Shown here one piece after another: positions 13,778-34,682 of a stretch of DNA of 64,000 nucleotides. The notes below the pieces were generated by a model. The model was not told the origin of the DNA. It searched no databases and saw only the letters and a program-made list of their open reading frames with translations. Source of the DNA: Vicingaceae bacterium. Its GTDB lineage: Bacteria > Bacteroidota > Bacteroidia > Flavobacteriales_E > Vicingaceae. The DNA is taken from the NCBI GenBank assembly GCA_018402765.1, contig JAGYIE010000001.1, positions 620,001 to 684,000 of the forward strand. Reading direction: 5' to 3'. The position numbers and the translations under genes are program-made. Within the stretch, counting starts at the first letter, position 1; every line of letters begins with the position of its first letter.

Positions 13778-14105
13778 TAGAGTTTACATTTTTCACGATT
13801 GTTACTGCTCCAATGGTATCACTCGTTGCTGTAACCAATAACAAACCAAAGGCATCGTTTTCATCTATTCTGTTTTGAAAGCAGACGGATTGTTTATTTG
13901 ATCCTTCCGGAAGCATATTGAAAAAAAATGAAAATAAAGATGCTGATTTATATTCTTGCTGCTTTTTTGGTAAGGTTAAACTAATTGCAGGTTTTCGCTC
14001 ATCATTAAACCAAGTATCTAAATATCGGAAAACAAACGTCCCATCATCCTGCTGGTATAATTCTGCTGAAGGTTCCTTTTTATAGAAAACAATCGCTTTT
14101 CTCAT
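13770..14105 (-). CDS. HipS-like protein (stand-alone HipA N-subdomain 1)
   Basis: 111 residues. Residues 1-60 fit the first subdomain of HipA (an AIVFYKKEPSAELYQ strand pair and FRYLDTWF), and FSFFFNMLPEGSNKQ is the conserved loop that reads LLPEG in HipA. In E. coli HipBST the equivalent small protein is the antitoxin that binds the kinase. Antitoxin role here is inferred from that precedent. It overlaps the kinase gene by eight bases and starts seven bases after the HTH gene ends. Confidence 0.8.
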   Translation of the reverse strand: MRKAIVFYKKEPSAELYQQDDGTFVFRYLDTWFNDERKPAISLTLPKKQQEYKSASLFSFFFNMLPEGSNKQSVCFQNRIDENDAFGLLLVTATSDTIGAVTIVKNVNSNE

Positions 14106-14112
14106 TTAATAA

Positions 14113-14340
14113 TTAGATTTCTTTTACTTCCAATTTTAGCTTTAATCCAAGTGCATCCGCTAACTTATTTAAGGTTTGAAGGGTAGGGTTGCCCTTGCCA
14201 CTTTCAAATTGTTTGAGCGTTCTTAAACCAACACCAGAAATTTCAGCTAACTGTTCCTGTGTAACATTTAAGGTTTCTCTCCTCTTTTTTAATTCTAATA
14301 TTAATTCCGACAAGTGCATTATATTGCTCTTTTTAAACAA
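14113..14340 (-). CDS. HipB-like helix-turn-helix (XRE) regulator
   Basis: 75 residues, almost all one XRE-type HTH: TLNVTQEQLAEISGVGLRTL then FESGKGNPTLQTLNKLADAL. This size and content match HipB antitoxin/repressor proteins. It is the first gene of the split hip operon. An AGTGC-N8-GCACT palindrome sits 34 bases before its start codon, with two more copies beyond the operon, which suggests autorepression and perhaps DNA looping. Confidence 0.88.
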   Translation of the reverse strand: MFKKSNIMHLSELILELKKRRETLNVTQEQLAEISGVGLRTLKQFESGKGNPTLQTLNKLADALGLKLKLEVKEI

Positions 14341-14407: not shown

Positions 14408-15301
14408 CTAAAAACGATTCGTTTTCTCACTCAAATATTCCCTAAAAGCTTGCGGATAGACTACTTCAATCTCACCCGGTAAGCCTAATACAAAGCGACC
14501 AACTCCTAAGAAATTACCAACCTCTGTGGTAAGCAAGTAGTTGTTATCATCTACTTTTTTGAGGTACTTCTCACTCAAAGGGAATTCTTCTAAAATCAAA
14601 TTGTAAGCGACTAAGGATAATTGAAGCTGAATGGCAATAGGCTCGAAGCTTTGCATTCTAAAAATATCCGTTATTCCTACTCGATGTTTGAGTTTGTATT
14701 GCCAATCATTATCCAGTATTTCAACTTCCTGTATTCTCGAAGCTTTAAATATCTTATTGGTTTGGTCTTCGGTATCGTAGCACCAAACTCCGGTATAATT
14801 GATGGTAAAATCAATTGGCTCTACAATTCTATCTCGAATGTTCTTGCTGTTACCTGATTTGTATTCCTTTAAAACAACTTGTTTTTGCTGCTTAATGGCT
14901 TGAATCAGGTTGTATATATTCTCGGTTTCTTCTTTTTTGGTAATGGCATGGATCACCCTGTCAAAATCATATAGGCTGTAAAGCTTTTTAACGAGCTTCT
15001 CTTTCAATTCTGAATCTTCATCAATGGCATGAATGGTTCTACTTAGAATAAAAGCCTCTTCTTCGGTAAAGTGTAGCAATTGACTAATGTCCTGTGCCGT
15101 AGCATTTTCTTTATCTATCCTGAAATAGCCGTTGTTATTTTCAATGACAAAGCCCACCTGTTTGAAAGTATCAAAATAGCGGTACACCGTCCTTTGAGAA
15201 ATATCAAAGCGATCCGAAAGTTCCTGAATGGTTCTTCCATACTTGCAATCAAGCATGAGAAGCACCTCCAACATTTTCTGAAATTTCGCCTGGTCTGCCA
15301 T
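14408..15301 (-). CDS. WYL-domain transcriptional regulator
   Basis: 297 residues. The N-terminal DeoR-type winged helix is GRTIQELSDRFDISQRTVYR; the central and C-terminal parts form a WYL domain (IDFTINYTGVWCYDTEDQ corresponds to the W-Y core, then a C-terminal extension ending in FREYLSEKTNRF). WYL regulators bind nucleic-acid ligands and often control defence operons. Its start codon overlaps the mcrC stop by one base, so it is co-translated as the last gene of the restriction operon. Autogenous control is inferred. Confidence 0.88.
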   Translation of the reverse strand: MADQAKFQKMLEVLLMLDCKYGRTIQELSDRFDISQRTVYRYFDTFKQVGFVIENNNGYFRIDKENATAQDISQLLHFTEEEAFILSRTIHAIDEDSELKEKLVKKLYSLYDFDRVIHAITKKEETENIYNLIQAIKQQKQVVLKEYKSGNSKNIRDRIVEPIDFTINYTGVWCYDTEDQTNKIFKASRIQEVEILDNDWQYKLKHRVGITDIFRMQSFEPIAIQLQLSLVAYNLILEEFPLSEKYLKKVDDNNYLLTTEVGNFLGVGRFVLGLPGEIEVVYPQAFREYLSEKTNRF

Positions 15302-16566
15302 TAATTAATGATTTTAAACAATATCCTTTCACCTATCGCAAAATCCAATTGATTCCTTTCATTCAGGACGTTGATAAAACCAACTTTGCATTGATTGTCT
15401 TGTGGATTCTCTCGACCTTTCCAAAACGTTCCAAATTTTTCAGATGATGTGTTCGAATGAGGGTATAAAAGCATACTTCGTTTTGCTTCCCAATAAAGAT
15501 TATATGAATACATCTGTTTCAAGTCATCATCACTCGGTTTTGGATTGTTGGTATCGAGCATTTTCCATTTCGTATCAATTACAAAAGTTTCTTTTTGATC
15601 TCCTATTTTATGTGTGACAACAAGATCAGGACGAATGGTTCTTGTTTCCCAAAATTTCTGTTTGTTCTGAAAACTAATATGTGTATCGGAATCAGCAGAT
15701 CGAACTAGCATACGGTAAATATATTCTTCCCACAACTTGTTCATATCGAATAATAAAGTCAACATATTTTCTTGTCCCTGCCGTATATCTGGAGAGTAGT
15801 TCAAAAGGATCATCCGTGCGATCTGAATAGCTTTTGTATAGGATGCTGTTTTTCTAGTTTCTTTTATTCTCTCGAAATGTGTATTATCAACCTTTAACGT
15901 ATTCACTTCTGGAAAAGCAGAAGTAATCCTAGATACACGATCTACAATTGTTGGATTAGAAGACAATAATCGAAGTACTTTCAATCCCTCAAAAAGAATC
16001 TGATTAATCATGTGGTCATAATCATAGACTTGATGATTTGTGTAAAAGAGTTCTTGGTGTATGAGGTTCTTTTGAATGTTTTTAGCGAACTCAATACGTC
16101 CCTTCAGGGCTGTTACGTTTCCTGATTGTTTTCGGTAGCTCTTTATGAGACCTTGACGCAAAAGTTTCTCAATCTCATCCAAATACATCTCAAAGTAAAG
16201 ATCAAGAATAGAGTTGTATTTCCTTTTTAGACTAGCTTCTGACACAGTAGAAACGCTAATAAATTTGCAAACTTTAAGCATATTAAGCAATGCTCCATGC
16301 CAGTCAGAATAATCCTGATCGGAAGCCCTATTTCTATCTGTTTTTGGCAGAATCTCAATTGTTAGACCACCAATTTGAATAACCCCTACATAGCTTTTGA
16401 ATTTTATACCATCACGTATTCCTGTAAAAAATTCGTTTCCATTCCGATCGTTGAAGTCATACAATCTTTTCAGTTCATGTGGCAATAAGAACCTTCCCCT
16501 GTCATCTTTATGAAGGGTAAGTTTTTCGTATTCAAAAACTCGTATAGGCTCTCTTCTTATTTCCAT
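15301..16566 (-). CDS. mcrC: McrC-family nuclease subunit
   Basis: 421 residues. The N-terminal half starts with an IRREPIRVFEYEKL strand and has FKSYVGVIQIGGLTIEILPK, the typical McrC opening that contacts McrB. The C-terminal PD-(D/E)xK nuclease has Asp314 in TIRPDLVV and Asp331-Thr-Lys333 in FVIDTKWKM. It is the cleavage subunit of a GTP-dependent restriction complex aimed at modified DNA in the classical system. The start overlaps the mcrB stop by one base (TAATG). Confidence 0.92.
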   Translation of the reverse strand: MEIRREPIRVFEYEKLTLHKDDRGRFLLPHELKRLYDFNDRNGNEFFTGIRDGIKFKSYVGVIQIGGLTIEILPKTDRNRASDQDYSDWHGALLNMLKVCKFISVSTVSEASLKRKYNSILDLYFEMYLDEIEKLLRQGLIKSYRKQSGNVTALKGRIEFAKNIQKNLIHQELFYTNHQVYDYDHMINQILFEGLKVLRLLSSNPTIVDRVSRITSAFPEVNTLKVDNTHFERIKETRKTASYTKAIQIARMILLNYSPDIRQGQENMLTLLFDMNKLWEEYIYRMLVRSADSDTHISFQNKQKFWETRTIRPDLVVTHKIGDQKETFVIDTKWKMLDTNNPKPSDDDLKQMYSYNLYWEAKRSMLLYPHSNTSSEKFGTFWKGRENPQDNQCKVGFINVLNERNQLDFAIGERILFKIIN

Positions 16567-18752
16567 TATGAATAAATACTGCTAAAATTCCATTCACTAG
16601 GTTGCTTCATTTCGTAAACTGCTCTTTCTTTCAAATCAGACACAATCGAATCATCATAGTTTTCGAATGAGGCAAAATCAATTTCTTCATTGTTAGTTTT
16701 ACGAATGAAACTGTTTCCTAAAACCAATCCAATTTTGCCATAATCACCAAAGAAATATTCCTCCAATAACGGAATCACTTTATCTCTGAATGCCACTCGA
16801 AGGTCATTTAAATTTTTTACGTTTAAGAAGTACGAATGCCCGATTTTGTGATCTTTATCAATCAGTTTTTCGATTCGCTTATTGATTGTTTCCAATACAC
16901 GAACAACGTCCACATCTCCAATAATTCCGTCAAAATCCTTTAACTCACCAACAGCACTAATTAGCTCAGGTTTAGGTGGCATTTCTTTGAAGGAAAACCT
17001 TCTTCGTAGCGCAGTATCCAAAGCTTCAATACTTCTATCTGCTGTATTCATTGTTCCAATGATGAAAACGTTGTGTGGAACTTTGAATTCTTCTTTCGAA
17101 TAAGGGAGTATAACGCTCAATTCCTCATCCTTTCCTGCTCTTTTATCCTTTTCAATCAATGTAATTAACTCACCAAAAATGGAAGAAACATTACCTCTGT
17201 TTATCTCATCTGCAATTAGAACAAAATTCTTAGGGTTTTTAGGCAGTTTTAAATCATCACTTACTGTTCCTTCTTTCACAAAGAATTCTGGTTTGATCTG
17301 CTCTCTTTTTAACTTGTAAATTGTCTTTTGAGTAAGCAAACTGTAATACAAATCTTTGATTGGAATTTCTTGATTCACCATTAACCATTCAACAGATCTG
17401 AAATGATTGTAGGTAGGATTTATCTCAAAAGGTGATTCCTTGTATTCATAATCCCCAGTAACCTTACCTATGGCTCTTACATAGTAATTGCCATTCGAAA
17501 TCAAGACGTAGTTCCCAACTTTTAGGTAATTTTTGAAATAATTCAACGAACGAATGGCATCATCAGAAAGTTTTTCCTCCCGACCTAATTCATTAATTTG
17601 TCTTTCGTCTTTACCTGTAAAATCAATCTGATCTCCGAATCCAATGGTAATACAATTGTTCTTAATACAAAATTCATAGATCTCAATATCTTCTTCCAGT
17701 TGAGTGTTTCCAAGAGACATTTTATAGAATTGCGCCTTGGTAAACTCGTCCATGGACATAGAAATCGGATTTTGTGATTGAATTTCTTTGGAATTCAAAC
17801 TATCCTTAGCTAATCGGCACACTTTTTTGAAGATTCCCTCCTGAACTTCGTATTTCAAGTACTTATCATCTTCTTCTGGTTTCACGGGTTTTATTCCCTC
17901 AACAAAATCTTCGTAACTAAATGATTGGTGAAACGTGGTAAAAGCAATTTGACCATTGTTTTCTTCCTTTGGATTTATCAATAATAACTTAAATCGTTCC
18001 TTTAATTTGTCACGATCATTTGCGTATAATTTATAAAACTCTGGGTCAGCAATTTTAATTGCCTCGTTTATCGTGTGAAAAGTTTTACCTGTACCCGGAG
18101 GACCAAAAAGAATTTGATTCAATTCTTCGTCATCATTGTCCTCAGTTTGTAAAACTTCAACTGCATCATCTGGATTGCTGTAAGCATTCCACAATTCTCT
18201 ATAAAACTCAAAGAATTCTTTATCTTCTTTTTGAGAGATGATAAAATCATTTAAAGCGGAATAGCTTTTATCTTTTCCTGAGTATCCTAAATAAACAGCA
18301 CTATTAACTAAAGCTTCATATTTGTAGATTGGTATGATATTGAAATCACCATAAAGAAAGGCTATTTTCCACTTGTACGCATCGCCAAGATCAATGTCAT
18401 CAATTGCTTTCAAATTATTGTCGATTGCATTTTGAGCAACAGAGATAATTAACGAACGTACATTTTCAAATGCTAAAATTCTTGATTCCCCATATTTTTT
18501 AACCCATGAATATTCATTGTCCGTTAAATAAGCAGTTCTATTGTCTGGTTTTGTACCCTGCCGTTTGTAAATTCCAAATTTATAAGCTGAGCCACCCCAA
18601 ATGCTTCCTAAGTCAGTAGTGATTGCTTCTACCCAATAACAAAAAGATGTTTTGTTCAAATTGGTATATTCCTCAATAGTCATTGTCTTTAATTTTTCGA
18701 CTGACCATTTTTGAAGAAATTCAGTTTTTGTGTCGTAAAGTTTTGTATTCAT
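16566..18752 (-). CDS. mcrB: McrB-family AAA+ GTPase with a domain inserted inside the AAA+ core
   Basis: 728 residues. Residues 1-200 form an N-terminal domain (FCYWVEAITTDLGSIWGG) of the kind seen in other McrB-like ATPases. Walker A is GPPGTGKT at 217-224, Walker B is VLIADEINRGN at 511-521, and the McrB signature MNTADRS is at 568-574. Walker A and B are about 290 residues apart. The extra segment, about 330-490, has a beta pattern with FYKMSLGNT, CITIGFGD, VGNYVLISNGNYYVRAIGKV and NHFRSVEWL. This resembles PUA/EVE-like modules that read modified bases. Such a module is usually N-terminal in McrB. Domain identity is inferred from the pattern only. It lies 24 bases after the methylase gene and is coupled to mcrC. 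Confidence 0.9.
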   Translation of the reverse strand: MNTKLYDTKTEFLQKWSVEKLKTMTIEEYTNLNKTSFCYWVEAITTDLGSIWGGSAYKFGIYKRQGTKPDNRTAYLTDNEYSWVKKYGESRILAFENVRSLIISVAQNAIDNNLKAIDDIDLGDAYKWKIAFLYGDFNIIPIYKYEALVNSAVYLGYSGKDKSYSALNDFIISQKEDKEFFEFYRELWNAYSNPDDAVEVLQTEDNDDEELNQILFGPPGTGKTFHTINEAIKIADPEFYKLYANDRDKLKERFKLLLINPKEENNGQIAFTTFHQSFSYEDFVEGIKPVKPEEDDKYLKYEVQEGIFKKVCRLAKDSLNSKEIQSQNPISMSMDEFTKAQFYKMSLGNTQLEEDIEIYEFCIKNNCITIGFGDQIDFTGKDERQINELGREEKLSDDAIRSLNYFKNYLKVGNYVLISNGNYYVRAIGKVTGDYEYKESPFEINPTYNHFRSVEWLMVNQEIPIKDLYYSLLTQKTIYKLKREQIKPEFFVKEGTVSDDLKLPKNPKNFVLIADEINRGNVSSIFGELITLIEKDKRAGKDEELSVILPYSKEEFKVPHNVFIIGTMNTADRSIEALDTALRRRFSFKEMPPKPELISAVGELKDFDGIIGDVDVVRVLETINKRIEKLIDKDHKIGHSYFLNVKNLNDLRVAFRDKVIPLLEEYFFGDYGKIGLVLGNSFIRKTNNEEIDFASFENYDDSIVSDLKERAVYEMKQPSEWNFSSIYS

Positions 18753-18776
18753 TTAGTCTATAAAATTTTTGATTGA

Positions 18777-21700
18777 TTAGCTTTTTAACTGAGTGCGAAT
18801 AAACTTTATTTGTTCATCATTTATTCCGTACAATTGATATACAGCTTGATTATATTTGAAACTAAACTCTTCTGATGGAATTGAATAGTTGCTATCGATA
18901 AACTCTCTAACAATTTCTTTTGGCAAACCCAATTTGATAGGTAAATCTTTGATGAAAATTGCTTGGTATCTTAAATAGCCACCCGCTTGAGGTATGGTGT
19001 TCTTTGAGTGATAGTAAGTCAAGAGTTCTGAATTAAGAATCAATAACAATTCTGAGTAAAATATATCATCCCCCCCAACTTTGATTAGATTATATACAGT
19101 TGTTGATCCAAAGTAATTCTTGTCATCAAATGCGAAACTGTTTCTTTTGGCATTATCCAATGTGACAATTTTCATCTGCTCAAAACGATCTGGATTTCTT
19201 TGATTCCATAATTCAAACCATAACTTATTTGATTTGTCGAAATAACCTCGACCTGACAATTCCTTTCTTTTATTCTCAAGATAGTTGTATAAATTGGGAA
19301 AGTTTTGTTTCAGATTATCCTCTGGAATCACCTTGCCACTATTGTCATAGGGGTAAATTAAATACTTGTTCTTATAGCTTATTTTGAATGGCGCAATATC
19401 CTTTCCTTTTAAAAACGGCTTAAGAAGATCTCGTTCAATATCAAATTGAATAATATCCTTATCTGACAGAACAAAAACTAGATCTTTACCAGTAGCAATA
19501 CCTTGGTAAATTCCATCAAGTAACGATTCTAAAGAACTAGAGCCTTCCCGAACGATATTAAAGATGATGTCGATCTCATCATTTTGAAATATCCATAAAT
19601 CTGTACCAAGCTTTTCTGTCTCTACATTAGTAAATTCAAAAATTTTTGAATTTAAATCATAACGTAACTCTTCTATATTTCTAATTATTTTGTCGGATAG
19701 CGCTCTGGCGTAAAGAAATTTTTGCTTGGGTGTTACAGTTTTTTTAATAATGAAAACTCCTGTATATGCTAAGGCATTTTCAAAGACCTTTTTATCAACA
19801 AAATCTACGATTGATTTAATTGAAACTTGATCATTCAATAATTTTCGAACCGCTGTACCATAATCCCTTTGCATAAATCTTGTTGGATGTATAGAAACCG
19901 CTACACCATCAGTTTTTAAGAGCTGATTATACAATTCAATAAATGCTATGTATAGGTCATACTTACCTTTTAGGGATTGATATTTCGGCTCAATGAGATT
20001 TTTAATTTCCTTTTTCAAATTTTTAAATTCAACATAAGGAGGGTTAGCAATTACAATATCAAAACCTCCATCATCGAAAACATCCTTAAAAAATAAATGC
20101 CAAAGGAAAAACGGTTTTTGATTAGAATTAATTAGTTGATTAATTTTTATTTCTCTGTTAATTATCTCATTTAGTTGTTTCTCAAGCTGTTTTGAATTTT
20201 TGAATTCCTTCGATTGTTCAAGCTTTATTATTTCCTCAGGAGTTTTAAGGTGTTTACGTTTTTTAGAAAGATTACTGTTTAAATTTTTCAGACTATCTTC
20301 CATGTCCATTTTTTCGGCTTCAATAGCCTCATGTATGTAATCAATGACAAATTGATCAATATCTGAATTCAACTTATTTTTAGATTCTGGAGAAGAAGCA
20401 GTAAAATAATCATTTAGAATGTTTTGAATATTTACATCACTTTTTCTATTGAAATTTCCAGAAAAAAATGGACTTGAAAAATCAATTTTTTGTGTATTTG
20501 AAGCTTGACTAACATTACTTAAATCTATTCCCTCAAAGCTTTCTAATAAACTATTGCCCTGCATTATTTTATAATCCAAGTTTGGCAAAGGCATAGGTTC
20601 TTCTTCATCTACAACGAGAGCCAACCAAAACCTTAATCTTGCAATATCAACGGCTCCATTTTCAATATCAACGCCATAAATGCTGTGTTGAATAATGTTC
20701 TTTTTTACTATATGAGGTTGCCAGTTACTGTTGCTTATTTTCCAAATTTCTGAAACAGAATCCCTTTCAAAATCCCATAACTGAAAAATAATTTGATAAA
20801 TCTCATTTAGAATCCCCATAGGAAACGCACCAGAACCAATTGCTGGATCACAAATTTTAACTTCGTATAATGCTTGCGCAATATCTTCAAGAATATCCAA
20901 GTCATTAACACCTTGAGCTAACTGTTTACGAATCAATTCCTCAATTGCTATATACTTTTTTGATTCAGGTGAAGCTCTAAGTTTTGTTGCTAAGTATTCA
21001 ATCAAGCTTTCTTGACACATGAATTGAACAATAACTTTTGGTGTGTAAAATGCGCCCTTATCTTTGTTGTCCTCTAGAAGATTCTCGAAAATATGACCTA
21101 ACATTTCAGGGTCAATTCCCACCTCATGATCATTCGAATCATTCTCATCAATTGTAAAATTATATTGACTGAAAAAGTCAAATAAATTTTCAAAGTACTT
21201 ACTCGGAAAATCAATCAATTTTGAAATCTCTGCATCGGTATCAAATAGACCACCATTCAAATAGGGAATCTTTGATCCGTTCAACTCTCCATTTAAGCCA
21301 TCACAAGTAAATATTGAATTTTCACGCTTACCATTATTTAGGGTGTCAAAAAATAATTGTGACAGACATTTAGAGTGAAAATGATCTTTGTCCTCAAAGT
21401 TCAAAAACAAATCTTGCATAAACTGTTTGTTACCTTCTTTCCAGCCTTCTTTTGAGCTGTCACAGCCCATCCATCCTTTTTTTTGTAAAAAATGTAAAAA
21501 AACTATTCTTCCTAAAAGTTTTTTGGAAAAATCACGGATTTGTTTATCCCGATCTTTTTCCAAAAAAAGTTTATTATATGAAGGATTTTTCGCGATATAA
21601 GTCCAGAATTTTTCAAATTCCTTTTTATACTTATCAAAGAACTCCTTTGATAATTTTTCCACGTTGAAAATATCAATGATATCCTTGATTGTAATTTTTG

Positions 21701-22190
21701 ATTCACTTTTAAGTATTATAAATCGTTCTGCAAGAGTTCTGTTTGTTTCACCTTTTCCTCCATAATAGGTAAATCTTTTGGTGTCAGTTTGATTTTCTTT
21801 AAAATCCCAAATTTCCTGATCGAAAATTGTATTTTTCCCGCAGAATGTAAGCCTGTAGTTTTCTGAATTTTCTTGGTATATTAATGCAATTGCAGCTGTA
21901 TAATTACCATCCCCAATTTTATTAGAAATAATGGTGTTAAGCTTGACCCTGTTTCTTTTAAGTTTAACATTAACATTCGCTTTTAATTCAAAAAGGGCTA
22001 CTTGTTTTTCGTCATCAAGTTTAATATATCCCAGTTGAACGAAATGCTCAACTTCTTGATTATTGTCAGTGATTTTTTGCGGTGATTCAAAAAATTTCAC
22101 TCCCGAAAAAGTTTCTGGATAAATTGAATTTATCCAAAGCTCTCTTGAATATTCTTTTCCTAATAACTGTTGTAAATCTCTTTTATCCAT
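18777..22190 (-). CDS. Eco57I-type restriction-modification methylase, possible type IIG enzyme
   Basis: 1137 residues. Adenine-N6 methyltransferase core: GAFYTP at 379-384 (motif X region), CDPAIGSGAF at 447-456 (SAM motif I) and NPPY at 716-719 (motif IV). A long helical spacer (about 600-690) and a C-terminal recognition part (about 850-1130) follow. The N-terminus has an aspartate near 59-60 and FELKANVNVK with Glu68-x-Lys70, a possible PD-(D/E)xK nuclease site, which would make one protein carry cutting, methylation and recognition. BREX PglX is similar in size, but no pglZ or brxC is present. It starts one base after the end of the PLD-helicase gene. Confidence 0.88.
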   Translation of the reverse strand: MDKRDLQQLLGKEYSRELWINSIYPETFSGVKFFESPQKITDNNQEVEHFVQLGYIKLDDEKQVALFELKANVNVKLKRNRVKLNTIISNKIGDGNYTAAIALIYQENSENYRLTFCGKNTIFDQEIWDFKENQTDTKRFTYYGGKGETNRTLAERFIILKSESKITIKDIIDIFNVEKLSKEFFDKYKKEFEKFWTYIAKNPSYNKLFLEKDRDKQIRDFSKKLLGRIVFLHFLQKKGWMGCDSSKEGWKEGNKQFMQDLFLNFEDKDHFHSKCLSQLFFDTLNNGKRENSIFTCDGLNGELNGSKIPYLNGGLFDTDAEISKLIDFPSKYFENLFDFFSQYNFTIDENDSNDHEVGIDPEMLGHIFENLLEDNKDKGAFYTPKVIVQFMCQESLIEYLATKLRASPESKKYIAIEELIRKQLAQGVNDLDILEDIAQALYEVKICDPAIGSGAFPMGILNEIYQIIFQLWDFERDSVSEIWKISNSNWQPHIVKKNIIQHSIYGVDIENGAVDIARLRFWLALVVDEEEPMPLPNLDYKIMQGNSLLESFEGIDLSNVSQASNTQKIDFSSPFFSGNFNRKSDVNIQNILNDYFTASSPESKNKLNSDIDQFVIDYIHEAIEAEKMDMEDSLKNLNSNLSKKRKHLKTPEEIIKLEQSKEFKNSKQLEKQLNEIINREIKINQLINSNQKPFFLWHLFFKDVFDDGGFDIVIANPPYVEFKNLKKEIKNLIEPKYQSLKGKYDLYIAFIELYNQLLKTDGVAVSIHPTRFMQRDYGTAVRKLLNDQVSIKSIVDFVDKKVFENALAYTGVFIIKKTVTPKQKFLYARALSDKIIRNIEELRYDLNSKIFEFTNVETEKLGTDLWIFQNDEIDIIFNIVREGSSSLESLLDGIYQGIATGKDLVFVLSDKDIIQFDIERDLLKPFLKGKDIAPFKISYKNKYLIYPYDNSGKVIPEDNLKQNFPNLYNYLENKRKELSGRGYFDKSNKLWFELWNQRNPDRFEQMKIVTLDNAKRNSFAFDDKNYFGSTTVYNLIKVGGDDIFYSELLLILNSELLTYYHSKNTIPQAGGYLRYQAIFIKDLPIKLGLPKEIVREFIDSNYSIPSEEFSFKYNQAVYQLYGINDEQIKFIRTQLKS

Positions 22191-22191
22191 T

Positions 22192-25100: not shown

Positions 25101-25476
25101 CCTTTATCTCAATCTTTTTTGAGGCAACATCTTCGATAAATTGTAGAATTCCTTTCTCAACTTCTTGGTCATACTGAGAAGCTTGAATATCATCCTTCAT
25201 ATCTTTAATGAATTCAACCAACGTTTGATTTGCATCACCTTGAAACAACAATCCTTTAGAACTATATTTTGCAATTATTTCATCAACGTTGATCCCAACA
25301 AGTATTCTAATTACAGGCACATCCTCTAGGAATGGACGAATTTTAAAATATCCAGAAGCTCGAAAATAACCTACGAGCGCATCAAAAAACTCAATGTTTT
25401 TATTGTTTTCAAATACACCTTGAAATTTCTTCAAGAGTGTATTTGAACCCTCATTTGTAAAAAAACGTGTACTCAT
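22192..25476 (-). CDS. PLD-nuclease/SNF2-type helicase fusion
   Basis: 1094 residues. Residues 1-180 are a phospholipase D-like nuclease half-site: HAKIYIF at 133-139 and GSSNLTDAGL at 155-164. The superfamily 2 ATPase follows: GLGKT at 281-285, DEAH at 355-358, then ITATPLNN, and motifs V-VI in TEVLAEGVNLHRSNVIV and QRIGRVNRIG. A basic helical tail rich in Lys and Gln (about 980-1060) could bind nucleic acid. Single PLD motifs normally need dimers. The gene start directly abuts the stop of a small remnant reading frame. In context it should translocate on or cut DNA for the methylase/McrBC cluster; this is inference. Confidence 0.88.
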   Translation of the reverse strand: MSTRFFTNEGSNTLLKKFQGVFENNKNIEFFDALVGYFRASGYFKIRPFLEDVPVIRILVGINVDEIIAKYSSKGLLFQGDANQTLVEFIKDMKDDIQASQYDQEVEKGILQFIEDVASKKIEIKAHPHRNLHAKIYIFRPENWNEHNQGKVITGSSNLTDAGLGGSDQSNYEFNVILQSFDDVQFATQEFEKLWLEGIPILPIEIEKIKKETYLSDSFTPFEVYMKFLIEYFGKSVEFDPNSVTDLPTGFKRLSYQVDAVNQGYELLKKHNGFFLSDVVGLGKTVVGTLIAKKFFYSNGFPSHISTILIVVPPALKTNWVETLDKFELKNYEIVTNGSLHKIADPEKYDLVIVDEAHKFRNDSAEAYNTLQKLCKTKTKQKLKDGSKAEKKVMLITATPLNNRPSDIANQVYLFQDAKDSTLEVSNLQHFFRQKIDDYNKLKDNPDIAAVQQGVKVIYQEIRDKVIAPLTIRRTRTDLKIHDQYKTDIEDQGIVFPDIKKPTKVFYQLSEEVDQLYDETMFLLSHDIDGIKYYRYQAIKFLVPEKKAKYKNADVASGALANMMKILLVKRIDSSFHAFKSSLNRFAEATRAMIEMFENGRIYIAPNLNVSEYILDGKEDELAERLADLRETDPTITICTPEDFQEHFLPELQRDYEIVKDLNERWSKVIEDPKIEEFKRILEEELLSKEINPQQKLVVFSESKETTGYITSKLKESGRDDILEVNASNRDKLKEVIRENFDANIPREQYKSDFNIVICTEVLAEGVNLHRSNVIVNYDTPWNSTRLMQRIGRVNRIGSVAPYIHIYNFYPTAKVNNDIELEKKAIMKLQAFHSALGEDSEIYSPDEEIQSFGLFEKDVDEEKDERLAYLMELRKFKEENPQEFRRIRNLPMKARVGRKDRTKKNSTICFVRNSRRDAFYWVKDDNEIEEMGFVEVAKEFRADPPEQGVSLHEKHHEQVSLAVQDFDDKLKEEMASGQVIDTTQGPNEKRALAYLDGFLTFPFVNEAEKQKIQAAKQAIKQAKFQKLQREINALKRNAKKQKIKPVDLLDAVMRIIEKYPLNDKEEQISNPVVTVKSFKKFKPEIIISQSYSHQ

Positions 25477-25602
25477 TTATACTTCTTTGAGTTTTGAATT
25501 AGACGAATAAGGTACCTTGTTAATCCTTAAATCCTGTGTATCTTTTTTCAGACAGTTGCCTATCCAAGTGAGTTCGAGTTTTTGTAAGTTATTTTTTGCC
25601 AT
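25477..25602 (-). pseudogene. Remnant of a DNA methyltransferase 5' end
   Basis: A 41-codon frame starting MAKNNLQKLELTWIG. That opening matches my memory of many Mod-like site-specific DNA methyltransferases, where a GKENRP stretch follows. Here the reading instead runs into unrelated sequence after WIG and stops immediately before the helicase start codon. Most of the coding part is inside the first of two 75-bp direct repeats. I read it as the surviving end of a deleted methyltransferase gene that once followed doc. The family call rests on about ten residues. Confidence 0.4.
25516..25590 (-). repeat. 75-bp direct repeat, copy 1
   Basis: Identical base for base, as read, to 25711-25785. 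On the minus strand both copies encode NLQKLELTWIG in frame. Confidence 0.85.
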
Positions 25603-25608
25603 ACTATT

Positions 25609-25690
25609 TATTTCTTTGTGCTCTTCGTGTCTTCTTTGTGTACTTCGTGGTAAAAAAAACTTAACCACAAAGGTCACAAAGGGTTTCACA
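25609..25690. repeat. CACAAAG-type inverted element between the 75-bp repeats
   Basis: Left part reads CTTTGTG, CTTCGTG, CTTTGTG, CTTCGTGGT. Right part reads ACCACAAAGGTCACAAAGGG, so the two halves can pair around AAAAAAAACTTA. It is the same element family as at 57518-57735. Confidence 0.6.
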
Positions 25691-25710
25691 AGGTTCACTA
25701 TGTTTTAAAT

Positions 25711-25785
25711 CTTGTTAATCCTTAAATCCTGTGTATCTTTTTTCAGACAGTTGCCTATCCAAGTGAGTTCGAGTTTTTGTAAGTT
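25711..25785 (-). repeat. 75-bp direct repeat, copy 2
   Basis: Second identical copy, immediately before the stop codon of the doc-like gene at 25791. It is separated from copy 1 by 120 bases. Confidence 0.85.
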
Positions 25786-25790
25786 GTTTT

Positions 25791-26258
25791 TTATTGCTCA
25801 TTGTCGTTTATATTTTGATTAGCTAAATGATTCATTTTAGCCTGAATTATCTTCATTTTTAATTCTTCTGAATAGTCATACTCATATAAAATAGAAGTAA
25901 CTATCTCCTTTAATAAATCTCGGTCTATAATATTATCTGCAACATCTACCACAATATTTTCCATTTCTAAAATGAATTTAGATACTAAACCTTGAAGGTT
26001 GTTTATGGTAAGAAAATAAGCTGCCACAGCAATTGATGACCTTTTATTGCCATCATTGAAACAATGATTTTTGTTAAATGAAAAAATGAGATGCGTTACT
26101 TTATCTTCCAGTTCTGGGTAATAAAAGTCGTTTTGAACGTGGTCAAGCGTGCTGTCAATTAACCCATTATCTCTAATACCCATAAAACCACCTGATTCAC
26201 GAATAATATTATCGTGTACCTCAATTGTAAATTCAACTGTAAAGTATTGAAACGCCAT
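25791..26258 (-). CDS. doc: Doc-family toxin (Fic fold, death-on-curing type)
   Basis: 155 residues. The active-site motif HCFNDGNKR at 65-73 fits Doc (H-x-F-x-[ND]-[AG]-N-K-R), and the N-terminus has GGFMGIRDNGLIDS as in Doc proteins. Doc phosphorylates EF-Tu and stops translation. The usual small Phd antitoxin is absent; the gene just upstream encodes a 359-residue DNA-binding protein with a two-base gap. Fic/Doc genes are also common passengers of restriction operons, which is the setting here. The extra C-terminal tail (about 25 residues, Asn/Gln-rich) is unusual. Confidence 0.88.
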   Translation of the reverse strand: MAFQYFTVEFTIEVHDNIIRESGGFMGIRDNGLIDSTLDHVQNDFYYPELEDKVTHLIFSFNKNHCFNDGNKRSSIAVAAYFLTINNLQGLVSKFILEMENIVVDVADNIIDRDLLKEIVTSILYEYDYSEELKMKIIQAKMNHLANQNINDNEQ

Positions 26259-26260
26259 CT

Positions 26261-27340
26261 TTATCTATCTTTTAAGCGTTTAAAAACTTCTAACAATTCA
26301 GGATTTTCAATTACCCTATCAATTAAAGACTTGCTCTTATCTCCAAGAAAACGGCTGTAATCTTCTTTGCTTAATGCTCCAATGTAGTTTTCAAGGCGTT
26401 TATGAATAACGTTACGCAAACCATAGTCACGAGAAGCCATTTTGGTACAGGCATCTTCTATTTGTGGTATCCAATGCCTTTTCTTTGAAAATCGCATTAT
26501 TAAGACATTCAATTCAGAGGGTGTAAGTTTTCTGCCTAAAGATTCTGCTTTTTCCTTCATTTCATCAGCAATACCAACCTCAAAAGAGGCAATTAGCTTT
26601 AATACTTCGGCATACATTGTATCTCTTGGATTGTCTTTTTCCTCAAGATTTAATATTGCCTTGTATTCTTTAGCATTTTCTTTAAAAATGGCTTGGTAGA
26701 TGGCATCTGTGTAAACCGCATATTTGTAATTGCCCATTTCTAAATACAGGTTAAGAGCATTGGTAAACTCTTTTCTGTATATAGGTTCTCGGGTAATGGC
26801 TACTAAAAACTCCTCATCCCGTTGATTTATGAATTTAGTTGACCCTCCAATTTTTTGGTTAAGTGTATCAATTACAATATCTAAAATCTTACTTCTTAAC
26901 CTTTTGGCATTTTCACTCTCGGAGAGAAGCATTGCAATATTTAAAAAAGCCCTAAAATTGAATACCGCCAAACTTTTAAGTCGCTTAAATGATTGATTAT
27001 CAAATTCTTGTTTTGACAGAGGGTCATTAATGCCCCTCTGTGAAAAATCGTCATCATCCTCAGTAAGTAAAGGACCAAACAATGCTTTAAACTCTTTTAA
27101 TTTTTGCCCTTTTACAACTTGATAACCGTTATGCTTAATTTCATCTTCAAATTTATCTAGCGTTCGTTTGATAGTACTTAAATCTACTTGAAAAAAATTG
27201 GCTACCATTTTGGAAGTAAATAGATACTCACCTTCATATAATAGTCCAACTAAACCAATATGAGTTTGTATCTTCTCAATTGCCTCTGTGTTGTTGAGTA
27301 TATTTTGTCTGTCTATCGCAGATTGTGTTAAGTCTTTCAT
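26261..27340 (-). CDS. Putative DNA-binding protein paired with Doc
   Basis: 359 residues, helical, soluble. About 40-80 reads as a winged-helix segment (GEYLFTSKMVANFFQVDLST then IKRTLDKFEDEI). The middle (FRAFLNIAMLLSESENAKRL) and the C-terminal half are helical with no catalytic motif that I recognise. It sits one base after the SNF2 gene and two bases before doc, so the three are translated together. A role as antitoxin and/or repressor for Doc is inferred from position. It could instead be a specificity or regulatory subunit of the SNF2 module. Confidence 0.6.
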   Translation of the reverse strand: MKDLTQSAIDRQNILNNTEAIEKIQTHIGLVGLLYEGEYLFTSKMVANFFQVDLSTIKRTLDKFEDEIKHNGYQVVKGQKLKEFKALFGPLLTEDDDDFSQRGINDPLSKQEFDNQSFKRLKSLAVFNFRAFLNIAMLLSESENAKRLRSKILDIVIDTLNQKIGGSTKFINQRDEEFLVAITREPIYRKEFTNALNLYLEMGNYKYAVYTDAIYQAIFKENAKEYKAILNLEEKDNPRDTMYAEVLKLIASFEVGIADEMKEKAESLGRKLTPSELNVLIMRFSKKRHWIPQIEDACTKMASRDYGLRNVIHKRLENYIGALSKEDYSRFLGDKSKSLIDRVIENPELLEVFKRLKDR

Positions 27341-27341
27341 A

Positions 27342-30263
27342 TTATATAATTGACCATTTTATGGTGAATAATTCTGTGGTATTTACTTCTTGCTTTAAGC
27401 GTCTTTCAATCTCGTCTAATAGGTTTTCCTTGCGGTCGTCTATAGTGTCTTGAGCTTCAAAAAGGTGTTGGCGTTTTTCGCTTCGTTTCTTTTCTAAATC
27501 CTTAATGGCTCTTTGGGCTTTTACTTTGGATTCCAGATTGAGCATTTTTTTAGCTTCGGATTTACGAAGTTTGATTTCTGCATCTAAGTCTTTTATTTCC
27601 TTATCCAAACTCAATTTCATATCGTCTGCCCATTGGTCGAGCTTATCCATTTCGGTATCAAAAAAGTCTTTGTTACGGTTGGCATTATCTGAAATAACAC
27701 TTTGCGTTTCGCTATACAATACTTCTTCTAAGGTCTTTTTAATATTCTCTGGAGCATAAAGCGATTGCCCTTCAGTAGCTTGAATAGAAAAGAAGCGTTG
27801 GGCTATTTCGTTATTAATGGTTTCGCCATCATCCGTAATGCAAGCCGTGATTAAAAAATCTTCAAACTCAAAAGAATTGATTTCTAAATGGCTTACCTGC
27901 AACCAACCCGATTGCCCTATGTAGTTTTCCAATGCGGTTACTTTGGTAGGGGTGTTGGAATAATCAAAGGTCAATTCCTTTGATGCTGTATTGAGTTGCT
28001 TACAAGCTCCTAAAATTTCTTTGGCTAACTTATGCCCTACACGATAAATATTAGTGTCATCAGGCACATCAATATCCGATTTTCGTTGCCCTTGTTTGGG
28101 CTTCAAAATCATATATGGCCCTTGATGAATAGATACATTAGGGAATGGATTTTTCTTTAAGGTAAACGTGTAGTTGTCATCATCAAACTGGGCTGAGCTG
28201 TTTAGATAGAATTTTGTGGTATCCCATAATCGTTCTTCAAAGCGGTTCAGGTTTTCGGTACTTTCAAAAAGATTGGTTTTGAGTTTTTCTCTTACTTCTT
28301 CATCAAAATTTTCAATCAATACTTTTCTTGTTTCCTGTACTTTTTCGGAAATGTCAGGTTTCAATTCTTGTTGTAAATCATCAAAAGCCGTTTGTATTTC
28401 TTCTGTGGTTCGGCATTGTTGGTATATTGTAGCGATTCTTTTTTCAAAATCAACACCATTGCCAATGCTTCCTAAAACTTCATCAGAAGCTCCAAAAACA
28501 CCATCAAATAAGCGGAATTTTTGGTCTAAGAGTTCATAAACACGTTGGTCAGCCGCATTGGCTTTGTTGAGGAAATTGATAACTACAACATCATATTTTT
28601 GACCGTAACGGTGGCATCTACCAATACGTTGCTCAATACGTTGAGGATTCCAAGGCAGGTCGAAATTGATAACCAAAGAGCAAAACTGTAAGTTGATACC
28701 TTCGGCAGCTGCTTCGGTTGCCACCATTATAGTTGCTTCATCTTTGAAATAGTCAACAATGGCAGCTCTTTTATCGGCAGTTAATGATCCTGTTAAAATA
28801 TCAGTACCCTTATGCTTTTTTAGGTAAGCTGCATAAATCTCTTTTGATTTTGCATCTGCATTGCTTCCGTTGAATTTAACCACCTTATCGGCATATCCTC
28901 TTGCTTCTAAAAGATTACAAATAAAATCTTGTGTTCTTCTGGACTCAGTAAAGATTAGAGCTTTTTGATTAGCACCTAATGATTCTAAGGCTGTAAACCC
29001 TCTTTCTAAGGCGGTGAATAATTGTTCTGCTTTTGAGTTTTTTCTAATGCGTTGAGCCAAGGCTCTAAACTTTTCTAAGTCGGCTAATTCACTTTTAACT
29101 TCTTCAATTTCCTCCTCTGTATAAACAACTTCCTCAAAATTATCTTCGGCTTCACTTTCATCTTCTTCTTCACTTTCCCATTCGTCTTGAATTTCATCAT
29201 AGGTTTCAACATCAATGGTCATTTCATCTTCTTTCTCAATAGCATTGTGGTTGGTAATGATGTTTTCCAAACGCTTTACTAAAGCATCTAAAGTGCCGTA
29301 GATGGCATAAGTAGATGATGCTAAAAGTTTACGAAGTATTAAGGTCATTAATTGCCTTTGACTGAAAGGCAATGCATACAGTTTTTGTCGTTGTAAATAG
29401 TCCGTTACCCAATTGTAAAGCGTTGTTTCATCTTCATTGGGGAAATACTCCTGAACTAAAGGCTTACGCTCGGTATATTTGATGTACTCCAAAACTTGTC
29501 TTCTTAAAGTACGCTTACAAATGGGCTGTAAACGGTTTCTTAAATCTGTATAGTTTTCTTCATCAATATTTCTGCTAAACTGACTTTTGAAACTTTTTAA
29601 ATCGCCAAAAATGTAGGGGTCAATTAGGCTGACTAAGCCGTATAACTCTAAAATAGAATTTTGCAAAGGTGTTGCAGTAAGCAACACTTTTTTGCAATGG
29701 TCTAAGGCATCTTTGATGCCGTTGCCTATTCTATTTGAGGGTTTATAAACATTGCGTAAGCGATGTGCTTCGTCAATAATTACTAAATCCCAATTGATGT
29801 GTTTTAGATAAGGTGCTTTGTTTTTAGCAAAATGATACGAACAAATGATAATCGTATCATCCTGATTAAAAGGATTTAGATTGCCCTCTTTAATAGAGTT
29901 GTTAAATGATTTTGCTTCCAAAATAACGGAAGGCAAATAGAATTTATCTGCTAACTCTCTGTTCCATTGCTTACGCAAGTTGGAAGGACCAATAATTAAC
30001 AATTTCCTTTTTCTTTCTGCCCATTGTTGTGATAGTATGATACCGGCTTCAATGGTTTTTCCTAAACCTACTTCATCAGCCAGAACAGCACCTTTAGATA
30101 AAGGAGATTTAAAAGCAAAAAGTGCCGCTTCTACTTGATGAGGGTTTAAGTCCACTTGAGCATCCTGTAAGGATGCGGTAAGTTTGCCAATATCATTGGC
30201 AGGTAACTGCCTTGTTAAATCATAGGCAAAATATTTAGCGTGGTATGGGGTAGGGCTATTCAT
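27342..30263 (-). CDS. SNF2/RapA-like superfamily 2 ATPase
   Basis: 973 residues. DEVGLGKT at 63-70 (motif I), DEAH at 164-167 (motif II), LLTATPLQN (III), and C-terminal motifs TEAAAEGINLQFCSLVINF and QRIGRCHRYGQ. A strongly acidic insert rich in Glu and Asp lies between the two RecA lobes (about 345-390), and a long charged coiled coil (about 850-950) precedes the C-terminus. Likely a dsDNA translocase. It overlaps the 5'-nucleotidase gene by eight bases. DISARM DrmD is also an SNF2 protein, but the DUF1998 partner (drmB) is not here. Confidence 0.88.
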   Translation of the reverse strand: MNSPTPYHAKYFAYDLTRQLPANDIGKLTASLQDAQVDLNPHQVEAALFAFKSPLSKGAVLADEVGLGKTIEAGIILSQQWAERKRKLLIIGPSNLRKQWNRELADKFYLPSVILEAKSFNNSIKEGNLNPFNQDDTIIICSYHFAKNKAPYLKHINWDLVIIDEAHRLRNVYKPSNRIGNGIKDALDHCKKVLLTATPLQNSILELYGLVSLIDPYIFGDLKSFKSQFSRNIDEENYTDLRNRLQPICKRTLRRQVLEYIKYTERKPLVQEYFPNEDETTLYNWVTDYLQRQKLYALPFSQRQLMTLILRKLLASSTYAIYGTLDALVKRLENIITNHNAIEKEDEMTIDVETYDEIQDEWESEEEDESEAEDNFEEVVYTEEEIEEVKSELADLEKFRALAQRIRKNSKAEQLFTALERGFTALESLGANQKALIFTESRRTQDFICNLLEARGYADKVVKFNGSNADAKSKEIYAAYLKKHKGTDILTGSLTADKRAAIVDYFKDEATIMVATEAAAEGINLQFCSLVINFDLPWNPQRIEQRIGRCHRYGQKYDVVVINFLNKANAADQRVYELLDQKFRLFDGVFGASDEVLGSIGNGVDFEKRIATIYQQCRTTEEIQTAFDDLQQELKPDISEKVQETRKVLIENFDEEVREKLKTNLFESTENLNRFEERLWDTTKFYLNSSAQFDDDNYTFTLKKNPFPNVSIHQGPYMILKPKQGQRKSDIDVPDDTNIYRVGHKLAKEILGACKQLNTASKELTFDYSNTPTKVTALENYIGQSGWLQVSHLEINSFEFEDFLITACITDDGETINNEIAQRFFSIQATEGQSLYAPENIKKTLEEVLYSETQSVISDNANRNKDFFDTEMDKLDQWADDMKLSLDKEIKDLDAEIKLRKSEAKKMLNLESKVKAQRAIKDLEKKRSEKRQHLFEAQDTIDDRKENLLDEIERRLKQEVNTTELFTIKWSII

Positions 30264-31200
30264 TTATTTTATCATCTTCGTTCAATTTCTTTAATGGTGA
30301 TTTACTTGTATAAGGTACCTTACCCGCCGGTACTAATTTTGAAGCAGGTGCAAGGTGCGTATCTTGGTCGTCAAAAAATATGTGTGCACCAAAAGCTTTA
30401 AGCACTTTATCTTTGGAAACGCCACCCATAAAATAAGCTTCATCTACATATACCCCCCATTTTCGTAGTGTTTTTATAACTCGCATGTGGCTAGGAGCAT
30501 TACGTGCTGTTACAATAGCAATGCGTAAAGGCGTTAATTCTATACTTGTAGGCAAATGTTCTTGTATGGAAGAAAGCTTCCTTAATAGGTTCGCGAAAGG
30601 TCCTTCTTTTAAAGGATTGTCTTCATTTTCGGCTTCGTGCTTATGAAACGCTTCCATCCCCTCCGTTTTGTATCGCAATTCAGATTCTTCATCAAATAAA
30701 ACAGCATCTGCATCAAAAGCTATTTTTACTCTGTTATCTGTGGAATCAAATGAAGTAGGAGGATCGTAAATTGTGGCAGAAGCAGAGATACCCGAATCTA
30801 TAACTACCTGTACATCCTTTTCGTCTTTGGATAAAAACAAGTCAATATCAAAAGCATCAATATATGGAGCCAAGGGTTCGCCTCCTGAAAAAGCGAGTCT
30901 TGTAATATCAAGCTCCAAATATTTTATTGAGTTTAATACTCTAACACCTGTTTCAGGGCTATTTTTAGACATAACAACTACTTCAACAATTTTCTTATTG
31001 GCTTGGTTGTTAAGTTCTAATAGGCTCTTCACTAAATAAAAGGCTGTTCCGGGTTCTAATATTTCATTTTCTTTTTCAGCCTGAAACTTTCTAAAGCCCT
31101 CAATCCCTTGTTCTTCAAAGACTATATTTTCCTCTTCAAGATTAAAAAGTGACCTTGAAGACACTCCAATTACTAATATTTGTGATAGATCTAGTGGCAT
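30256..31200 (-). CDS. HAD-type cytosolic 5'-nucleotidase family protein (PF06189 type)
   Basis: 314 residues. HAD signatures: AFDADAVLFD at 161-170 (Asp nucleophile pair), Thr231 in TARNAP, lysine in FMGGVSKDK (257-265) and FFDDQ at 275-279. The N-terminal IGVSSRSLFNLEEENIVFEE is the family opening. Characterised relatives dephosphorylate nucleoside monophosphates. Its start directly abuts the rmuC stop and its end overlaps the SNF2 gene by eight bases, so it belongs to the operon by design, not by chance. A nucleotide-depletion role in defence is conceivable but is inference. Confidence 0.85.
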   Translation of the reverse strand: MPLDLSQILVIGVSSRSLFNLEEENIVFEEQGIEGFRKFQAEKENEILEPGTAFYLVKSLLELNNQANKKIVEVVVMSKNSPETGVRVLNSIKYLELDITRLAFSGGEPLAPYIDAFDIDLFLSKDEKDVQVVIDSGISASATIYDPPTSFDSTDNRVKIAFDADAVLFDEESELRYKTEGMEAFHKHEAENEDNPLKEGPFANLLRKLSSIQEHLPTSIELTPLRIAIVTARNAPSHMRVIKTLRKWGVYVDEAYFMGGVSKDKVLKAFGAHIFFDDQDTHLAPASKLVPAGKVPYTSKSPLKKLNEDDKINE

Positions 31201-32568
31201 TTAGTTAATTTCTTCATTTTCGTCTTCTTCAACTTCTATTGCTTCTCCCAACAAATCTGCACTTTCAGCGGTTGGCAGTTCTTCTACTTTTTTCAATTTA
31301 GAGAGCATCATTTTGGTACGAGTACCTACCAATGCGTCTAACTCCTTATTGGCTTCGTTTAGTTTCTTTTGGGCTTTCTCCAATACGCCACCAAACTTGC
31401 CAAATTCTGTTTTAACAGCACCTAATATTTGCCAAACTTCACTGCTTCGTTTTTGAATAGCCAAGGTTTTAAAGCCCATTTGTAAACTATTCAACATAGC
31501 AGCCAAAGTAGTTGGTCCGGTAACTATGATTTTATATTCACGCTGTAACAATGCCACAACTTCCGGTTGGCGAACCACCTCGGCAAACAACCCCTCAATT
31601 GGCAAAAACATGATACCAAAATCAGTAGTATTTGGCGGGTCAATGTATTTGTCTCGTATATCTTTTGCAAACTTTTTAATGCTTTGTACTAAGGCTCGGT
31701 TGGCAGCATCTACACCTGCAACATCTCCTTCATCATAAGCAGTTTGTAGTCTTACATAATCTTCTTGAGGGAACTTGGCATCAATAGGTAGGTACACCTC
31801 TTTACCATGGTCGTCTTTACCGGGAAGTTTAATTGCAAATTCCACATGATCGTTAGAACCTTGTTTGGTTTTTACGTTGGCTTCGTATTGTTCGGGAGCC
31901 ATGATTTGCTCCAAGATATTACCCAATTGGATTTCACCCAATACACCACGGGTTTTTACATTGCTCAATACCTTCTTTAGGTCGCCTACACCATTGGCTA
32001 GGTTTTGCATTTCACCCAGTCCTTTTTGCACAGCTTCTAATCGTTCACTTACAATTTTAAAGGATTGTCCTAAGCGTTCCTCCAGTGTTTTATGTAGCTT
32101 TTCATCTACCGTTTCTCGCATTTTCTCCAACTTCAATTCGGTAGATTTCACCAACTCATCTTGTTTGGTCGCCATGGCATCAAACTTCTGCTTTTGCAGG
32201 TCGTTGAAATCCTTTACGTTTTTACTAAACACATCACTAAAGCTTTTTAACGATTGGGTAAGCTCTTCACGATTATCCTTGGCGTTTTTATTAAGCCCTT
32301 CGCTAATTTGGGTGAGCTTTTCTTCTAGTTTCTGTGTAAGTTTATCTAAGCCACCTGAAAGCTCTTCACGATTTTCTTTTAAGGCAGCAGAAAGCTCGGT
32401 TCTGTTTTCTTTTAACTCGTTTTGTAACAGACCACGCATTGCTTCAATGATAGGTGTAGTAGCATCTGTTTTACCGCTTTTGAGCAGTAAAACAACTAAA
32501 AGTACGAGGCATAAAGCCGATAAAATGATTGCAATAATCTCCATATTTCCTGACATTTTTTTAAACAA
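31201..32568 (-). CDS. rmuC: RmuC-family protein
   Basis: 455 residues. One N-terminal membrane anchor (IIAIILSALCLVLLVVLLLK), a coiled coil (about 45-200, repeated KENREEL/TQ phrases), then the RmuC core with GVLGEIQLGNILEQI, LPIDAKFPQEDY (the DAK of a PD-(D/E)xK-like fold) and GIMFLPIEGLFAEV. E. coli RmuC limits inversion of short repeats. Here it is the promoter-proximal gene of the defence operon. A second ATG five codons in (MSGNMEII) is possible. RmuC is normally a stand-alone core gene, so this may be a dedicated paralogue. Confidence 0.92.
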   Translation of the reverse strand: MFKKMSGNMEIIAIILSALCLVLLVVLLLKSGKTDATTPIIEAMRGLLQNELKENRTELSAALKENREELSGGLDKLTQKLEEKLTQISEGLNKNAKDNREELTQSLKSFSDVFSKNVKDFNDLQKQKFDAMATKQDELVKSTELKLEKMRETVDEKLHKTLEERLGQSFKIVSERLEAVQKGLGEMQNLANGVGDLKKVLSNVKTRGVLGEIQLGNILEQIMAPEQYEANVKTKQGSNDHVEFAIKLPGKDDHGKEVYLPIDAKFPQEDYVRLQTAYDEGDVAGVDAANRALVQSIKKFAKDIRDKYIDPPNTTDFGIMFLPIEGLFAEVVRQPEVVALLQREYKIIVTGPTTLAAMLNSLQMGFKTLAIQKRSSEVWQILGAVKTEFGKFGGVLEKAQKKLNEANKELDALVGTRTKMMLSKLKKVEELPTAESADLLGEAIEVEEDENEEIN

Positions 32569-32612: not shown

Positions 32613-32771
32613 TTATGGGAATTCCTTGTAACATCCTGAAAATGTTTGCATTTTTAAGATCAATTTTGTGGAAACTTTTTCAATATTCCCGAAATCATTC
32701 AGAATTCGCTTCGCAATGAATCCGAAAAATGGATCATTATGCTGGGAACTTGCTGGGTATATCTCCATCAT
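32613..32771 (-). other. Short open frame across direct repeat copy 1, doubtful
   Basis: 52 codons upstream of rmuC. The repeat portion reads QHNDPFFGFIAKRILN. The same phrase is open in repeat copy 2 but in another context, so it is more likely a repeat-borne fragment than a gene. No family recognised. Confidence 0.2.
32686..32746. repeat. 61-bp direct repeat flanking hipBA, copy 1
   Basis: Differs from 34622-34682 at one base (C or T after CCCGAAAT). It begins TTCCCGAAAT and ends TTATGCTGGG. Confidence 0.85.
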
Positions 32772-34204: not shown

Positions 34205-34523
34205 TCTTCTTAGGTTTTTTAGGGGCTCTTTCTTTTGGTAATAATTTTGCATCTTGGAGCTTTCTGCCTAACTCATCGTCCTTAGCAAGTTTTAGGAAAT
34301 CCTTCTCTAAACCTAAAACAAACATCACCTGAAGATAGGAGCTAATACCAACCGATGCAGCACCCTTCTCAATAGAAGATAGTGTTGGTCGACTAATGTT
34401 AGCGCGTTCTGCAACTTGCTCAGAACTTAGCTTACGCCTTAATCGAGCAAGTTTTATGTTTTCGCCTACTTCAACAAGAATTCTATTCAGATTGGGCAAT
34501 AATGTTGTTTTTGGCTTACTCAT
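34197..34523 (-). CDS. hipB: HipB-like XRE-family antitoxin/repressor
   Basis: 108 residues with an XRE HTH at about 20-75: LARLRRKLSSEQVAERANIS then RPTLSSIEKGAASVG. The basic, Pro/Lys-rich C-terminus (PKERAPKKPKKN) could be the tail that contacts HipA or DNA. First gene of the pair. A loose inverted repeat TTTAC-N16-GTAAA lies at 34538-34563, 15 bases before the start. Confidence 0.88.
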   Translation of the reverse strand: MSKPKTTLLPNLNRILVEVGENIKLARLRRKLSSEQVAERANISRPTLSSIEKGAASVGISSYLQVMFVLGLEKDFLKLAKDDELGRKLQDAKLLPKERAPKKPKKNE

Positions 34524-34621: not shown

Positions 34622-34682
34622 TTCCCGAAATTATTCAGAATTCGCTTCGCAATGAATCCGAAAAATGGATCATTATGCTGGG
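34622..34682. repeat. 61-bp direct repeat flanking hipBA, copy 2
   Basis: Matches 32686-32746 at 60 of 61 positions as read. Outside the repeat the flanks diverge apart from a nearby second GCTGGG. Confidence 0.85.

Follow-up and report, generated by a model that had tools for sequence, protein, structure and literature searches.

Does a nearly gapless run of ten genes in the genome of a Vicingaceae bacterium encode one composite defence system, or two systems fused at the scar in its middle? The first-pass annotation of this DNA had proposed both. The stretch analysed here (referred to as the window) comprises 64,000 nucleotides (positions 620,001 to 684,000 of contig JAGYIE010000001.1, GenBank assembly GCA_018402765.1), and the run (14408-32568) consists of ten intact open reading frames (ORFs), all on the minus strand, as are the features located within it below. 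The intergenic gaps were, in order, 0, -8, 1, 2, 314 (the scar), 1, 24, -1, and -1 bases; the earlier list agreed with these values except for a "0" after the scar, which is obtained only when a 41-codon ORF within the scar is counted. The earlier domain calls (RmuC, 5'-nucleotidase, SNF2, Doc, PLD-helicase, Eco57I methylase, McrBC, and WYL) were reproduced with Pfam, PADLOC, and NCBIfam, and the one gene omitted from them (26261-27340) encoded a protein of 359 amino acids matching PADLOC PDC-M59A. The catalytic motifs tested in the ten proteins were all present. As had been suspected, neither DISARM nor BREX was found: among the ten proteins there was no match to DUF1998/DrmB, PglZ, or BrxC, and the DrmD-type helicase scored 691 bits against a cut-off of 950. 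The PADLOC check proposed with the annotation returned, instead of the defining genes of these systems, the candidate pair PDC-M59A/PDC-M59B and PDC-S08 (5'-nucleotidase). The analysis described below suggests that the run is very probably a mosaic of separately inherited defence modules, not one conserved ten-gene system; this degree of confidence applies to the explanation as a whole (a mosaic operon at a hotspot, the loss of mod and res, a restriction unit with McrBC, Doc/RhuM, and passengers).

The upstream half and the type III restriction operon

The DrmD-like SNF2 helicase (973 amino acids; 27342-30263; NCBIfam NF038318, 2.1e-207) corresponds to the first gene of a type III operon with the order SNF2-[cargo]-Mod-Res. 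It is followed by the protein of 359 amino acids, which appears from its sequence to be RhuM-like (PDC-M59A, 1.9e-101; no Pfam match), and by a Doc/Fic toxin (25791-26258; PDC-M59B, 3.8e-36) with an intact HCFNDGNKR motif. The adjacency of M59A and M59B is that of the PADLOC candidate PDC-M59, and the RhuM-like protein is the probable partner or antitoxin of Doc.

When the whole collection was scanned with the RhuM-like protein, a locus with the same gene order was found in Flavobacterium aurantiibacter (L091), in which DrmD, RhuM, and Doc were 95, 92, and 99% identical to those of the window, respectively. There, the gene directly after Doc encodes a type III Mod (551 amino acids; confirmed by PADLOC) and the next one a Res-like helicase (890 amino acids), both intact. 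The two DNAs matched by blastn at 91% over 4.5 kb, from the start of DrmD to 50 bases inside mod, and within the window only ~50 bases of mod and no Res were found. Among 21 clustered DrmD loci (20 from the phylum sample and L091), a Mod-like gene followed the SNF2 gene in 20, and the one locus without it (L142) stops close to the end of its contig. What lies between DrmD and Mod differed from locus to locus. Annotated proteobacterial plasmids, from Cupriavidus and Salmonella (L237/L238), also showed the order SNF2-Mod-Res, and the Cupriavidus Mod and Res scored 625 and 954 bits against type III models. Because of the intact order in L091, the Mod-like gene at 20 of the 21 loci, and the plasmid order, the window appears to have lost mod and res, and its upstream half (SNF2 helicase, RhuM, and Doc) to be the kept front of such an operon. 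As regards the known relatives, the plasmid operons are headed by the same SNF2 helicase family but keep mod and res, both of which the window lost. DISARM class 1 (DrmD, DrmMI) likewise shares a DrmD-type SNF2 helicase and an adenine methylase of a broadly related class, whereas its DrmA and DrmB (DUF1998) were not found in the ten proteins and the DrmD of the window falls below the curated cut-off. DrmD as a common gene of the host family was rejected (1 of 46 genomes).

Since the window keeps only ~50 bases of mod and lacks both the nuclease and the methylase of a type III system, the upstream half might be decaying debris, with only PLD-helicase, methylase, and McrBC still at work. We regard this as possible but doubtful, since DrmD, RhuM, and Doc keep their full length and have no disabling change, and since their dN/dS values against L091 were well below 1 (0.05, 0.19, and 0.01, respectively; the span includes time before the loss of mod and res), as under purifying selection. 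RhuM-Doc, moreover, occurs elsewhere without mod-res. Doc lay directly after RhuM in 38 of 44 loci, with a type I restriction gene near the pair in 10 of those loci, and in one genome (G348) an operon of this SNF2-Mod-Res type carried the pair behind Mod. RhuM-Doc therefore behaves as a mobile pair, to judge from these neighbourhoods. Doc and RhuM were noted as passengers of restriction loci in 2013 (PMC3710099); those loci resemble the window in carrying Doc and RhuM-like genes within restriction-modification neighbourhoods, and differ in their PrrC/RloC-type HEPN genes, none of which was found in the operon of the window.

The scar between the two halves

The scar consists of 314 bases between the Doc and PLD-helicase genes. 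At its upstream edge, the first ~50 bases of mod, start codon included, are retained in frameshifted form (25751-25801; blastn to L091, ending 50 bases into the intact mod, and tblastn). Since the match to L091 ends at this point, the scar is probably the site at which mod and res were lost. The mod start occurs a second time in the scar, as part of an 82-nt direct repeat, of which copy 1 (mod-start remnant and tail) lies at 25711-25792 and copy 2, 99% identical, at 25516-25597. The scar also contains a REP-like imperfect palindrome (25590-25700; about -28 kcal/mol), a possible partial terminator that might stop read-through between the halves. No promoter of the tested types, Bacteroidota or sigma-70, was seen in the scar. 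The 41-codon ORF (25477-25602), the first 15 residues of which are Mod-like, has a stop codon that abuts the ATG of PLD-helicase.

This coupling of the scar to the PLD-helicase gene, together with the near-gapless spacing and with ORFs that are all intact and show low dN/dS, would be expected if DrmD, RhuM, and Doc had been re-wired to PLD-helicase, methylase, and McrBC as one integrated ten-gene system acting in one complex or pathway. Such integration is nevertheless very unlikely: none of the locus sets compiled for PLD, DrmD, or RhuM-Doc contained a second genome with both halves, and each part recurs without the others. In the neighbourhood check, the recurring units were SNF2-[cargo]-mod-res, PLD-helicase/methylase, McrBC joining that pair, and the mobile RhuM-Doc, with RmuC, 5'-nucleotidase, and WYL sporadic. 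Of the two earlier proposals, the single composite system is thus not supported, with both halves together in no other sampled locus, and the comparison of sequences supports a fusion of two systems at the scar, which is what remains of the type III mod.

The PLD-helicase and methylase pair

Downstream of the scar are a PLD (HKD) nuclease-SNF2 helicase (1094 amino acids; 22192-25476), the proposed restriction motor and nuclease, and an Eco57I/TaqI_C-type N6-adenine DNA methylase with a target-recognition domain (18777-22190), both identified by domain and PADLOC matches. HKD, Walker A, and DEAH of the former, and DPAIGSG and NPPY of the latter, were intact and conserved in relatives, and all 16 homologues kept HKD. 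The possibility that the N-terminus of the methylase is a catalytic nuclease was considered and rejected (its ExK motif is not conserved). Because HKD is conserved throughout and the methylase has no conserved ExK, the roles of cutter and motor probably fall to PLD-helicase, and those of protector and target-site reader to the methylase.

In all 26 other loci sampled from the phylum, the two genes were either adjacent or separated by one or two small genes. In the stretches compared around the pair, the other operon genes of the window were not found, save for 5'-nucleotidase (G240) and downstream McrBC (G145 and G307). PLD-helicase as a common gene of the host family was rejected (2 of 46 genomes). 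In about eight cases, SMC/RecF-like ATPases resembling MADS mad3 occurred near the pair, as an alternative third partner; 8 genes next to other PLD-helicase loci gave a mad3 match and, MADS being judged by mad3 only, PADLOC gave no mad3 match among the ten proteins of the window.

The HKD-SNF2 helicase and N6-methylase of the window are also those of type-2 BREX-related (BR) systems, which, in the available text of PMC12839542, have a Swi2/Snf2 helicase with an HKD nuclease fused to its N-terminus, an N6-methylase, and a proposed restriction-modification-like action common to both. On the other hand, type-2 BR as described there has a DUF499 ATPase and DUF3780, and the ten proteins of the window contain neither; at other loci, 93 genes neighbouring the pair were compared, and neither family was among those common to at least two of them.

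McrBC and its exchangeable cargo

An NxxD McrB-like GTPase (16566-18752; MNTADRS) next to the McrC nuclease subunit (15301-16566; PF10117, 3.2e-65, and tree) gives the gene arrangement of a type IV McrBC; the motif is not the NxD of CoCoNuT. In the window, McrB follows the methylase directly, without cargo. McrBC also stood at the 3' end of the pair's same-strand operon in five genomes of one other family: G145 and G307 from the unbiased sample, and G450, G451, and G445 from a targeted search of that family (in G445, McrB only, at the contig end). The interval between methylase and McrB differed in each: a KAP NTPase and AbiEi/AbiEii in G145; KAP, DarT/macro (DarTG), and a DEAD helicase in G307; ZorA2-ZorB2-ZorE2 (complete Zorya II) and a Schlafen-type gene in G450; and CD-NTase, Cap15 (CBASS), and others in G451. 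Nested complete Zorya II, CBASS, AbiE, and DarTG genes were thus observed within PLD-helicase/methylase/McrBC operons (L239, L240, L199/L036, and L200/L037).

Defence genes cluster in islands anyway, and McrC was present in 18 of 178 genomes of the phylum; the run could accordingly be an ordinary island of unrelated neighbours, in which the tight spacing is accidental and the link to McrBC is due to chance. We consider this unlikely because random placement predicts about 0.008 cases against the five other examples in the same order and strand, and because McrC was found in none of 75 other defence loci used as controls.

In the McrC tree, the McrCs of pair-associated operons fell in three places, and that of G451 is clearly a separate recruitment. 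The McrB of the window is a mosaic in its own right, closest to G145/G307 in its front and insert and, like McrC, to G400 in its rear. In G400, the genes upstream of McrBC are presumably type I hsdM/hsdS. An independent recruitment of McrBC in the window is weakened as a candidate by the position of the McrB front and insert with the G145/G307 lineage. No McrB relative was found in viral contigs.

YTH domains read N6-methyladenine in RNA. Residues ~331-493 of McrB form a YTH-like insert: in a predicted model, residues 331-493 matched the YTHDF2 fold (Z 10.5, rmsd 2.8, 125 residues), and the model (mean pLDDT 69.6) is good only in the GTPase and the insert, the latter being mostly above 80. We infer that this insert may be suited to reading base modifications on DNA.

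According to the available text of PMC11090510, methylase-associated NxxD McrBCs likewise occur in an operon with a DNA methylase and an SNF2 gene and carry an insert in the GTPase domain, the details being left there to a later publication. The coarse association of methylase with McrBC is therefore already published; unlike the present operons, it comes, in that text, without a described PLD-SNF2 pair and swappable cargo. HKD-SNF2 and N6-methylase systems with DUF499 are likewise published (PMC12839542). For a pair that lacks DUF499 and is joined by McrBC and nested cargo, we found no description in the available text of these two papers or in the other literature found. We tentatively put forward a distinct unnamed composite, in which a PLD-SNF2 helicase and an N6-methylase, swappable nested defence cargo, and McrBC follow one another, a modification-reading McrBC works with its own methylase, and the operon middle serves as a cargo bay; the window would then be a cargo-free version with the captured helicase-toxin front of a type III operon. 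We consider this possible, at less than even weight.

Sporadic members of the run

The remaining genes encode an RmuC-family protein (455 amino acids; 31201-32568; PF02646, 4.7e-79), a 5'-nucleotidase (30256-31200; PF06189, 2.9e-121; PDC-S08), and an HTH-WYL regulator (14408-15301; domain and PADLOC matches), the first two being classed as passengers. A congener (G002) has an intact, 73% identical RmuC, beside genes that we take to be katG and oxyR. A decayed RmuC fragment with two stops was observed in the host genome (G000:C1:152049-152351; L165), also beside presumed katG and oxyR, and the intact RmuC of that genome is the one in the defence operon. Elsewhere, the 5'-nucleotidase belonged to a PLD-helicase locus (L052/L227) or had as its neighbours a large methylase-like gene (L213), presumed type III mod-res genes (L204), or presumed BREX brxL/pglZ (L201 and L214). 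The WYL gene had no tblastn match in the comparison loci. Their distribution is that of sporadic members.

The genomic setting

A HipB-HipS-HipT-like set (12776-14340) borders the run on one side, and a HipBA pair (32924-34523) on the other. The former is a split HipBST-like toxin set just downstream, on the minus strand: a HipB-like HTH (14113-14340), a HipA N-terminal piece (13770-14105), and a HipA kinase piece (12776-13777). Upstream of the operon, the HipBA pair lies between the copies of a 61-nt direct repeat (98%; 32686-32746 and 34622-34682), a pattern that resembles an insertion or duplication of HipBA. Gene order common with two congeners ends at mnmE. The interval from mnmE to Band_7 is occupied in a congener (G001) by a different island, and an integrase-like gene lies beside mnmE both there and in L091; the window is therefore placed in what appears to be a variable defence-island hotspot after mnmE. 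At the far end of the island, the search for an mnmE-type attachment repeat gave only six-mismatch matches.

A proposed mode of action and its meaning

The preferred reading is a mosaic defence operon that would have been assembled at the hotspot behind mnmE, in which the broken mod start joins the upstream front to an apparently complete downstream restriction unit. The N6-adenine methylase would mark self DNA, and the PLD-nuclease/SNF2 motor would cut unmethylated invaders. McrBC may act as a backup that cuts base-modified DNA, read via the predicted YTH-like insert, and Doc with its RhuM partner may provide a last-resort growth-arrest module; WYL is probably a regulator, and RmuC and 5'-nucleotidase passengers. 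From domain content, the most likely function is thus a methylation-protected restriction unit and a modification-dependent nuclease with a YTH-like reader, which, if co-transcribed, would stand behind a kept helicase-toxin module.

The window appears to hold a base-level record of the rebuilding of a defence operon, with the breakpoint of type III methylase-nuclease loss and the joining of another restriction unit. The related operons indicate a recurrent frame that keeps its ends and exchanges its defence cargo. Finally, an m6A-reader-like fold beside an adenine methylase raises the question of self-recognition: a methyl-adenine reader in this position would have to leave self DNA untouched by some means.
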